This document shows positions 1,169 through 4,385 of a stretch of DNA of 33,403 bases, piece by piece. The stretch's first letter is position 1. Each line of letters opens with the position of its first letter. A program made the translations under genes and the position numbers. Origin of the DNA: Rhodospirillales bacterium (GTDB lineage Bacteria > Pseudomonadota > Alphaproteobacteria > CACIAM-22H2); assembly GCA_016794005.1 (NCBI GenBank), contig JAEUKY010000187.1:1-33403 (forward strand), in the 5' to 3' direction. The notes beneath the pieces are model-generated. The model saw only the letters and a list, made by a program, of their open reading frames with translations. It was not told the DNA's origin and ran no database searches.

Positions 1169-2344
1169 ATGTCCGATTCCGTCTATCGACGACGCTTTCC
1201 GGCCGGGCGGCTGCTCTTCAACGAAGGGCACGCAGCGGACGCGGCATACATAATCGAGACCGGCGCCGTGGAGATCTTCGTTGAATTCGCCGGCGAGCGG
1301 ACCCGTCTCGCAGTCTTGGGGCCGGGCGAGATTTTCGGGGAGATGGCGCTCGTCGACGACGCACCCCGCTCGGCCTCCGCGTTCGTCCTCGAGGACTGCG
1401 AGGTTATTGTCGTGGAGCGTGGCCAGATCAAGCGCGAGCTCGATCAGGCCACGCCCATGATGCAGATCCTGCTGCGTACGCTGATCCATCGGCTGCGCGT
1501 CGCGACCTCGACCTTGCCGCAGATGCAGACGCCGATATCGACGGACGAGGCCGCCCGCGTGATCGCCCGCATCAAGAGCGAGCACGAGGTGCGCCGGGCG
1601 ATCGACGGAGGCGAACTCGTGCCGTTCCTCCAGCCGATCGTGCGCCTCGACGACGGCGTGACCGTCGGATTCGAGGCGCTGGTCCGCTGGCACCACCCGC
1701 AGCAAGGGCTGCTGGGACCGGAGGCGCTTCTGGGTTCGGCCGAGCGGGCCGGCCTTCTTGAGGCACTCGACCTGATGGTCATGCGCGAGTCCGCCCGCAT
1801 GCTTGCGGCGCTGAACCGGCGTCTGGCGCTGGCCGGGCGGCGGCCGGTGTTCCTGTCGGCGAATTTCGGCGCGGCGCACTTCGCCGACGACCGACTGGCC
1901 GACGTTCTCGCCGAGATTCTCGCCGATGCGAACCTTCCTGCCGAACGGCTGAAGGTCGAGATCACGGAAACCACGCTGATCGTCAATCGCGACGCGAACG
2001 CCGCGCTCGCGCGCATCAAGGCGATGGGCGCCTCGATCAGCCTCGACGATTTCGGAACCGGCTACTCCGGCCTTTCCTATCTTTCCCAGTTCCCGATCGA
2101 CTATCTCAAGATCGACAAGAGCTTCGTCGCCACGATGCTCGACGATCGCAAGACTGGCGAGATCATCCGTTCCGTCGTCCAACTCGCAGCCCAGCTCGAG
2201 ATCGACGCGATCGCCGAGGGCGTGGAAACGGCGGCCCAGGCCGAATTCCTGCGCAACGCCGGCTGCGTCTACGGCCAGGGTTTCCTTTATGGTACGGCCC
2301 AGCCTGCCGAGCAGGCCTGCGCCGCCCTGTTCGATCGAGCGTGA
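1169..2344 (+). CDS. Cyclic-nucleotide-binding domain fused to EAL phosphodiesterase
   Basis: The 391-residue protein has two domains. Residues about 5-115 are a cNMP-binding (Crp-type) beta-roll, with FPAGRLLFNEG and GPGEIFGEMALVDDAPRSA. Residues about 150-385 are an EAL domain that hydrolyses cyclic di-GMP. The EAL signature residues I can place are E169-A-L, the ITE segment, D293-D294 in DDFGTGYSGLSYL, K314 in LKIDKSF, E350 in AEGVET and Q370 in GQGFLYG, so catalysis looks possible. There is no helix-turn-helix, signal peptide or membrane segment, so it should be a soluble enzyme gated by a cyclic nucleotide. The ATG at 1169 fits the start of the beta-roll but lacks a clear Shine-Dalgarno. 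A longer frame from 1088 adds residues of no recognisable domain. The next gene begins 13 bp after the stop. Confidence 0.9.
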   Translation: MSDSVYRRRFPAGRLLFNEGHAADAAYIIETGAVEIFVEFAGERTRLAVLGPGEIFGEMALVDDAPRSASAFVLEDCEVIVVERGQIKRELDQATPMMQILLRTLIHRLRVATSTLPQMQTPISTDEAARVIARIKSEHEVRRAIDGGELVPFLQPIVRLDDGVTVGFEALVRWHHPQQGLLGPEALLGSAERAGLLEALDLMVMRESARMLAALNRRLALAGRRPVFLSANFGAAHFADDRLADVLAEILADANLPAERLKVEITETTLIVNRDANAALARIKAMGASISLDDFGTGYSGLSYLSQFPIDYLKIDKSFVATMLDDRKTGEIIRSVVQLAAQLEIDAIAEGVETAAQAEFLRNAGCVYGQGFLYGTAQPAEQACAALFDRA

Positions 2345-2357
2345 GCGACAGACCGAC

Positions 2358-3284
2358 ATGACGACACAGCTGATCACCCATCCGGCCTGCCTCGATCACG
2401 ATCCGGGCGCCTACCATCCGGAAAACCCGCGCCGGCTCGAGGCCGTGCTCGCCGGCCTCGCCGACGACAGGTTCAAGGGGCTCGAGCGCGTCGTGGCACC
2501 GCGTGCGTCGGACGACGCGCTTTGTCTTGTCCATCCGCGCGCCTATGTCGAGGCGGTGCTCGGCTCGATCCCGCCGATGGGCCGTCACCAGATCGATGGC
2601 GACACGATCGTGTCGCCCGGGTCGGAGGACGCCGCCCTGCGCGCGGCGGGTGCCGTCGTCGCCGGCGTGGACGCCGTTTGCGAGGGGCGCGCGCGCAACG
2701 CGTTCGCGGCCGTCCGGCCGCCGGGACACCACGCCGAGGCCGCGCAGGCAATGGGTTTCTGCATCTTCAACAACGTCGCGGTCGGGGCATTGCATGCGCG
2801 CGCGCGCCACGGGCTGCGCCGCATCGCCGTGATCGATTTCGACGTTCATCACGGCAACGGCACGCAGCACATGTTCGAGCGCGACCCGGATCTGTTCTAC
2901 GCGTCCTCCCACGAATGGCCGCTTTATCCCGGCACGGGGGCGGCGGGTGAACGCGGGATCGGCAACATCGTCAACGCGCCGCTCGCCGGCGGCTCGGACG
3001 GACACGCCTTCCGTGCCGCGTTCGAAGCGAAGATCCTGCCGGCCCTCGACGCGTTCGCGCCCGAGCTGATCCTGATCTCCGCCGGTTTCGACGCGCACGA
3101 ACTCGACCCGCTGGCGAGCCTGCGCCTCGACGAGACGGATTTCGCATGGGTCACCCGCGCGCTGATGGACGTCGCCCGTCGCCATTCGCGCGAGCGCATC
3201 GTATCGGCACTCGAGGGCGGCTACGACCTTGAAGCCCTGGCGGCATCCGCCGCCGCCCATGTCGCGGCTCTGACGGAACGCTAG
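2358..3284 (+). CDS. Histone deacetylase family (AcuC/HDAC-like) metallohydrolase
   Basis: This 308-residue Zn-dependent amide hydrolase of the arginase/deacetylase fold is a usual length for bacterial members. Bacterial members act on acetyl-lysine, acetylpolyamines or related amides, and the substrate here cannot be told. Visible active-site parts are the RPPGHHAE motif with the catalytic His pair (H124, H125), DFDVHHGNG with metal ligands D162 and H164, the third ligand D245 in SAGFDAH, and the catalytic Tyr Y289 in EGGYDL. All key residues are present. The ATG at 2358 is chosen because the conserved N-terminus (THPACLDHDPG, then HPENPRRLEAV) starts directly after it. It follows the cNMP/EAL gene by 13 bp and may share its transcript. 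In many alphaproteobacteria a gene of this family sits just before xseB-ispA-dxs-tlyA; here three genes separate them. Confidence 0.92.
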   Translation: MTTQLITHPACLDHDPGAYHPENPRRLEAVLAGLADDRFKGLERVVAPRASDDALCLVHPRAYVEAVLGSIPPMGRHQIDGDTIVSPGSEDAALRAAGAVVAGVDAVCEGRARNAFAAVRPPGHHAEAAQAMGFCIFNNVAVGALHARARHGLRRIAVIDFDVHHGNGTQHMFERDPDLFYASSHEWPLYPGTGAAGERGIGNIVNAPLAGGSDGHAFRAAFEAKILPALDAFAPELILISAGFDAHELDPLASLRLDETDFAWVTRALMDVARRHSRERIVSALEGGYDLEALAASAAAHVAALTER

Positions 3285-3359: not shown

Positions 3360-4385
3360 ATGGCCGACGGTCGCAAGAACATCACGCTCGCCCTGCAGGG
3401 CGGCGGGGCGCATGGCGCCTTTACGTGGGGCGTGCTCGACCGCCTGCTCGAGGACGACCGTCTCGTCGTCGAAGGGATCTCGGGCACGTCGGCCGGCGCC
3501 ATGAACGGGGCCGTCGTCGTCGCTGGCATGGCTGAAGGCGGCGCACCCGCCGCGCGCGCGCTGCTGGCACGCTTCTGGGAGCACGTCGCCGAGACCGGCC
3601 GCTATTCGATCTTCCAGCCCTCGGTCTTCGACCGGATGTTCGGCAACTCGGCCAATCTCGACTTCTCGCCCTTCTACCAGGGCTTCGACATGATGACCCG
3701 TCTGCTGTCACCCTATCAGCTCAATCCGAGCGGCGACAATCCGCTGCGCAAGGCGCTTGTCGAGATGATCGACTTCGAGAAGGTGCGCGAAGGGGCAGGC
3801 GTCAAGCTTTTCGTCTCCACGACCAACGTACGTACGGGCAAGATCCGCGTCTTCCGCAACCACGAGCTCACGCCCGACGTGCTGCTCGCGTCGGCCTGCC
3901 TGCCGCAGCTCTTCCAGGCGGTCGAGGTCGACGGCGAGCATTACTGGGACGGCGGGTTCATGGGCAACCCGGCGATGTTCCCCCTTATCTACAACTGCCG
4001 CGCCTCCGACATCGTGCTGATCGAGATCAACCCGATCCGCATCGAAGAACTGCCGACGACGGCGCGCGGCATCGCCGACCGCATGAACTCGATCAGCTTC
4101 AACGCGACGATGATGCGCGAGATGCGCACGATCGCGTTCGTCACGCGCCTGCTTGACCGGCACAGGCTGACCGCCCGGTCGGGCCTGCGGCGCATGTTCT
4201 TCCATATGGTCCAGGCCGAAGAGGAGATGGCCGCTTTCGGCGTGTCGTCCAAATACAATCTGGACTGGGACTTCCTGTGTACCCTGCGCAAGCTCGGGCG
4301 CGAGAAGGCCGACGAGTGGCTGAAGGCCAATTTCGACATGCTCGGCCAGGACTCGTCCGTCGACCTCGAGAAACTGTTCTTCTGA
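3360..4385 (+). CDS. Patatin-like phospholipase family protein
   Basis: This is a 341-residue serine lipid acyl hydrolase of the patatin fold. The three catalytic elements are present: the glycine-rich oxyanion loop LQGGGAHGAF (about residues 12-21), the nucleophile elbow GTSAGA, and the dyad Asp in DGGFMGNPA. The C-terminal third (about 240-341) is helical-looking and ends with a charged tail. There is no signal peptide, so it is probably cytoplasmic or attached to the inner membrane. It may take part in phospholipid or polyhydroxyalkanoate turnover, but the substrate is not readable. The ATG at 3360 is preferred over the GTG at 3351 because GGAG at about 3345 is well placed for the ATG and too close for the GTG. 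Its TGA overlaps the ATG of the next gene (ATGA), so the two are translationally coupled. Confidence 0.9.
   Translation: MADGRKNITLALQGGGAHGAFTWGVLDRLLEDDRLVVEGISGTSAGAMNGAVVVAGMAEGGAPAARALLARFWEHVAETGRYSIFQPSVFDRMFGNSANLDFSPFYQGFDMMTRLLSPYQLNPSGDNPLRKALVEMIDFEKVREGAGVKLFVSTTNVRTGKIRVFRNHELTPDVLLASACLPQLFQAVEVDGEHYWDGGFMGNPAMFPLIYNCRASDIVLIEINPIRIEELPTTARGIADRMNSISFNATMMREMRTIAFVTRLLDRHRLTARSGLRRMFFHMVQAEEEMAAFGVSSKYNLDWDFLCTLRKLGREKADEWLKANFDMLGQDSSVDLEKLFF

Follow-up and report, generated by a model that had tools for sequence, protein, structure and literature searches.

A predicted cyclic-nucleotide-gated c-di-GMP phosphodiesterase of the Bd1971 type in an uncharacterised alphaproteobacterial genus

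Bd1971 of the predator Bdellovibrio bacteriovorus HD100 (PDB 6HQ2-6HQ5 and 6HQ7) couples cyclic nucleotide sensing directly to an EAL phosphodiesterase, and its turnover of c-di-GMP increases about 8-fold in the presence of cAMP or cGMP (PMC6717892). With a generic substrate, half-activation was reached at 54 uM cAMP and 26 uM cGMP, and the authors suggest that activation needs ligand in both sensors (PMC6717892). Within its pocket, Arg67 and Ser68 contact the phosphate, Glu58 the ribose and Met59 the adenine and ribose, with Arg108 and Leu109 capping the base and Asn113 placed at the adenine edge, a position at which homologues differ; a small residue at position 94 was proposed as a requirement for the domain-swapped hinge (PMC6717892). 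A140, L141 and I144 of the linker helix are wedged between the sensor body and the C-helix, and R182, R330 and Y385 are the residues that move most upon c-di-GMP binding (PMC6717892). A 2022 review names Bd1971 as the cNMP-sensing example and describes two further proteins, Lcd1 of Leptospira and Tlr0485 of Thermosynechococcus, that also couple cAMP to c-di-GMP turnover (PMC8846402). These sense cAMP through GAF domains, unlike the cNMP domain of the protein described below; Lcd1 makes c-di-GMP through a GGDEF domain and Tlr0485 is described as a GAF domain linked to HD-GYP (PMC8846402).

The window, by which we mean the whole 33,403-nucleotide stretch of DNA that was analysed, contains a gene of comparable design, with the following layout.

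1169..2344, + strand: cNMP-EAL gene, encoding a predicted cyclic-nucleotide-gated c-di-GMP phosphodiesterase of the Bd1971 type (391 amino acids plus stop)
1187..1444, + strand: cNMP_binding sensor domain, residues 7-92 (Pfam PF00027, E=5.9e-23)
1586..2293, + strand: EAL phosphodiesterase domain, residues 140-375, with a complete catalytic set (Pfam PF00563, E=7.2e-66)

The open reading frame is intact, running from an ATG at 1169 to a stop codon at 2342-2344 with no internal stops. An in-frame TTG at 1088 is a possible upstream start; however, alignment with eight same-genus orthologues begins at residue 1 of the protein read from 1169, and the ATG is therefore the likely start. A Pfam scan of the 391-residue protein at E<=0.1 returned no third family besides cNMP_binding and EAL, and the absence of any HTH family at this threshold means that the protein does not class as a CRP/FNR transcription regulator. 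Twenty-five NCBIfam families match it, all of them EAL-domain or CRP-like, partial and under their curated cut-offs, with the CRP-type matches, likewise under cut-offs, confined to residues 1-121. The first-pass annotation had read this gene as a cyclic-nucleotide sensor fused directly to an EAL domain, with no DNA-binding or membrane part, and an intact 391-residue frame holding just two Pfam domains confirms this. E. coli CRP has the same sensor fold, with Glu72, Arg82, Ser83 and Arg123 as the corresponding contacts (PMC6717892), but carries a DNA-binding domain where the window protein has an EAL output.

When the protein was searched against the PDB with phmmer, Bd1971 ranked first (6HQ5 and 6HQ4; residues 14-375, E=4.8e-65), and the next-ranked matches covered the EAL part alone. 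A profile built from the cNMP-EAL alignment (48 rows, 46 distinct) matched Bd1971 at E=7.4e-134 over positions 8-393 of 402. The two proteins are 32-33% identical by structural alignment, have the same domain order and are of about the same length; their residue numbers coincide from 14 up to where the C-helix ends, and they share the pocket residues, a hydrophobic wedge in the linker and the EAL catalytic set (PMC6717892). They differ in having T113 for N113, K317 for R330 and F372 for Y385 at the c-di-GMP site, and a linker of 29 rather than 38 residues. The likeness to Bd1971 that had been drawn in the first-pass annotation is thus upheld and can be tightened to nearly full-length homology with a conserved pocket and a complete catalytic site.

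Two elements of the sensor bear on ligand binding.

1334..1378, + strand: phosphate-binding cassette, residues 56-70 (FGEMALVDDAPRSAS), holding E58, M59, R67 and S68 (from the sequence; matches Bd1971 F56GEMALIDNQNRSA69)
1454..1507, + strand: C-helix, residues 96-113, with base-capping R108 and L109, and T113 (AlphaFold2 helix 96-113; alignment to 6HQ5)

Over residues 14-113 the window protein and Bd1971 align without a gap and with identical numbering, and E58, M59, R67, S68, A94, R108 and L109 are the same residue at the same number in both. The pocket therefore does not lack its nucleotide contacts. The adenine-edge Asn is the exception, as the window protein has T113 where Bd1971 has N113. 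Among 46 distinct cNMP-EAL proteins, the window protein included, E58 and R108 are invariant (46/46 each), R67 is present in 43, M59 in 40 and S68 in 35, and position 94 is A, G, S or T in 40. Position 113, on the other hand, is variable (T in 13, Q in 12, L in 7, S in 5), with Asn in a single row of the 46; because of this, and because homologues are also said to vary there (PMC6717892), N113 was not treated as a defining residue.

As a control, the same sensor model was used to align the remaining cNMP domains of the window genome. The genome gave 19 matches including the window protein; L174 and L176 proved to be one ORF and no row was obtained for L164 or L175, leaving 15 other distinct places with a full-domain row. 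Fourteen of these 15 keep E58 and 13 keep R67, but only four have an Arg at position 108 (L161, L169, L170 and L171), with another residue in seven and rows ending earlier in the remaining four. E58 and R67 are thus common to the cNMP fold, and the invariant R108 is more specific to the cNMP-EAL family. Overall, the pattern of conservation suggests a constraint on the cyclic-nucleotide pocket throughout the fusion family. The same counts bear on whether the enzyme could be a constitutive phosphodiesterase, its sensor acting solely as a dimerisation scaffold that exerts no control over activity. The CRP/FNR superfamily does include cNMP folds that have ceased to bind cyclic nucleotide, and nothing direct favours this for the window protein; a scaffold would not need pocket residues, yet E58, R108 and nearly always R67 have been kept, and we regard a constitutive enzyme as very improbable.

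In the same genome, two short open frames of 167 and 156 amino acids (L158, G000:C133:7513-7767; L159, G000:C185:2769-3023) have cNMP domains that are 42% and 41% identical to the window sensor, with Asn at the position of Arg108 and Met at that of Ser68.

The EAL domain has retained the signature residues that had been ascribed to it, namely E169-A170-L171, R173, N232, E264, E267, D293-D294, K314, E350, E353 and Q370. From RocR and other EAL work we take the catalytic set to be E169, N232, E264, D293, D294, K314, E350 and Q370 in the present numbering; this set is complete in the window protein and invariant in the cNMP-EAL alignment (46/46). By alignment, the counterparts of the mobile Bd1971 residues R182, R330 and Y385 are R173, K317 and F372. 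Not all EAL proteins are enzymes: FimX and LapD act as receptors, and by analogy the window protein could be a trigger that binds both c-di-GMP and a cyclic nucleotide and acts through a partner. In receptor-type EAL proteins, though, the catalytic residues are degenerate, and the full set found here, without variation in the family, makes a receptor role scarcely credible.

We propose that the window protein works like Bd1971, with an occupied sensor dimer switching on c-di-GMP hydrolysis, and consider this likely by analogy with the characterised enzyme. The protein would be a soluble homodimer in which the N-terminal CRP-like sensor of each chain binds cAMP, and probably also cGMP, through E58, R67 and S68 together with R108 and L109. 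Ligand at both sensors would rearrange the C-helices together with the hydrophobic side of the linker helix (V131, I132 and I135), allowing the EAL domains to form an active dimer; an activating rather than an inhibitory effect is what the Bd1971 precedent would predict. At high cyclic-nucleotide levels c-di-GMP would then be hydrolysed to pGpG. In short, the enzyme probably degrades c-di-GMP when cAMP or cGMP is bound. The first-pass annotation had cAMP or cGMP controlling c-di-GMP breakdown: the pocket and the catalytic site that this calls for are conserved, while the control itself is carried over by homology.

Coupling between the two domains would run through the linker.

1541..1606, + strand: linker helix, residues 125-146, in which V131/I132/I135 align with the Bd1971 wedge A140/L141/I144 (AlphaFold2 helix 125-146; alignment; conservation)

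The first wedge position holds A, V, I, L, M, F or C in 42 of the 46 rows, the second in 40 and the third in all 46. Between R108 and Glu138 lie 29 residues, compared with 38 between R108 and Glu147 in Bd1971; across the 46 cNMP-EAL rows this length varies between 23 and 44, with 29 occurring most often (9 rows). This shorter linker is the main structural difference from Bd1971, and with 29 residues instead of 38 there is little room for the glycine-rich segment and beta-extension of the latter. An AlphaFold2 model of the ligand-free monomer had a mean pLDDT of 86.5 and a pTM of 0.66, and its best six matches in the PDB were six Bd1971 chains (TM 0.65-0.67, rmsd 6.0-7.3 A). Single EAL domains superpose on the model at roughly 2-3 A, compared with which the whole-chain rmsd is high, so the modelled domains match those of Bd1971 without their relative placement being reproduced. 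The junction was modelled poorly, with block means of 52-57 pLDDT over residues 111-130 and values under 50 for 116-121. A tentative suggestion, made from the sequence, is that the shortened linker and T113 together give a coupling unlike that of Bd1971, for example a non-swapped dimer with an activation selective for cAMP where Bd1971 responds to both cAMP and cGMP; we think this possible but doubtful.

The class III cyclases of the genome were considered as a guide to the physiological ligand. In these enzymes, Lys at the first substrate-choosing position denotes an adenylate cyclase and Glu a guanylate cyclase. Nine class III cyclase domains were found in the window genome assembly (3.67 Mb in 402 contigs, 85% complete, 4.7% contamination), eight with Lys at the first position and one (L006) with Gln; at the second position six have Thr, two have Ser and L006 has Lys, and L006 is left unassigned. 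None of the nine domains in this 85% complete genome has Glu at the first position. Since eight of the nine carry Lys, these residues point to cAMP as the likelier natural ligand, as far as this general rule and an incomplete genome allow. cGMP was set aside in this role for want of a guanylate-type Glu in the nine domains, although a guanylate cyclase could have been missed at 85% completeness. At two similarly arranged places in the genome, a cNMP domain lies on the opposite strand from a class III cyclase domain and no more than about 1 kb away (G000:C396:2452-2997 with 3604-3858, and G000:C101:604-855 with 1462-2007).

Another possibility is that the architecture is the same and the sensor is tuned differently, either preferring another ligand or inhibiting the EAL domain when occupied. 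The replacement of N113 by T113, the variability of this position across the family and the linker of 29 rather than 38 residues could all be taken in this sense, and for Bd1971 itself cGMP is a somewhat more effective ligand than cAMP (PMC6717892). Ligand choice also seems able to shift within the family, as R67 and S68 have been lost in three relatives from one genus (L150:1492-2706:+, L152:1477-2691:- and L153:1468-2691:-, from G285, G189 and G063). The window protein, by contrast, retains the remaining contact residues as well as the wedge, and eight of the nine cyclase domains in its genome look adenylate-like by the rule given above. A differently tuned sensor is thus unlikely here, and control of the Bd1971 kind remains our preferred reading.

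In the three relatives E58 and R108 are retained, whereas His-Tyr is aligned with R67-S68 and M59 is replaced by Tyr, the motif starting FGEYG. Judged from these substitutions, their sensors may bind another ligand, and with R67 and S68 lost in three relatives, having the cNMP-EAL architecture is by itself no guarantee that the ligand is the same.

Full-length cNMP-EAL genes are present in 9 of 11 genomes of the genus, the window included, and one further copy is cut by a contig start. G009 (92% complete) is the sole genome of the 11 with no cNMP-EAL copy. In a sample of 385 alphaproteobacterial genomes, which includes the window genome and one other of the same genus, 30 gave a match at E<=1e-58; 28 of the matches reach the sensor (query start <=13) and two cover the EAL domain only, so that the number of carriers is at least 28, a lower bound set by the strict cut-off. 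L156 (G085) and L157 (G298) are EAL proteins 43% identical to the window EAL domain with no match to the window cNMP sensor. Among the 80 matches listed from the record-titled collection, at least 14 are full-length cNMP-EAL proteins and at least five of these are from Bdellovibrionota; other full-length carriers among the matches listed are Methylobacterium, a Kordiimonadales bacterium, Minwuia, Telmatospirillum and unclassified groups. Homologues have been reported from multiple proteobacteria and cyanobacteria and from selected spirochetes and actinobacteria, with Micavibrio, Methylobacterium and Magnetospirillum named in the text and Magnetospirillum magneticum Q2W2M8, Methylobacterium radiotolerans B1M546 and Micavibrio aeruginosavorus G2KM87 in the legend to Fig EV4 (PMC6717892). 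The three in the figure share architecture and bacterial class with the window protein and are likened to it by architecture alone; relatives from Methylobacterium and Rhodospirillaceae are present among the matches listed (L056 from Methylobacterium oxalidis, L061 and L065). The layout had been described as rare, which is not borne out by at least 28 carriers in 385 Alphaproteobacteria genomes and the homologues named in PMC6717892. A search of 72,556 plasmid records gave no matches at E<=1e-55.

An EAL tree of 94 rows, with Bd1971 absent, placed the window genus in a clade of its own (9 rows, support 100/100) and divided the 46 cNMP-EAL rows from 48 other EALs across one weakly supported branch (support 60/84, found in 62% of bootstrap trees). 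It was built from best-scoring domains, L122 being left out as too short, and the other EALs were L023-L039, every second locus of L066-L131 up to 30 loci, and L156-L157. This topology is compatible with a single origin of the cNMP-EAL fusion in a set gathered by similarity to the window protein, a procedure that would miss independent fusions with a distant EAL. As the pocket is apparently constrained over 46 aligned proteins, the Bd1971 mechanism looks general rather than specific to predators, an idea already stated in the Bd1971 paper in 2019 (PMC6717892). We regard the window protein as a fresh member of the Bd1971 type, its different linker and Thr113 being of modest interest; searches of an open-access library, judged by title, brought up no paper on an alphaproteobacterial cNMP-EAL member. 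If the analogy holds, direct cross-talk from cAMP to c-di-GMP would extend to an uncharacterised alphaproteobacterial genus.

In the window, a histone-deacetylase-family gene (2358-3284), its ATG 13 bases past the stop codon of the cNMP-EAL gene, is followed by a patatin-like gene, a gene whose product has two CBS stretches and one read as SthA-like; a divergent HlyD-like gene lies upstream. Promoter and tRNA scans gave nothing of use. The deacetylase-family gene is nearby in all nine genus loci and adjoins the cNMP-EAL gene in five, other genes being inserted after the latter in four (by eye, the inserts of L042 and L045 look PhyH-, PdxA- and PdxJ-like). BLASTP of seven neighbouring window genes against 15 loci outside the genus gave nothing at E<=1e-15, several of those loci being truncated by a contig end. 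With adjacency in only five of nine genus loci and neighbours unmatched in the 15 outside loci, operon context was rejected as a clue to function. The deacetylase-family protein is 80-88% identical in the nine genus loci, exceeding the conservation of the cNMP-EAL protein in each.
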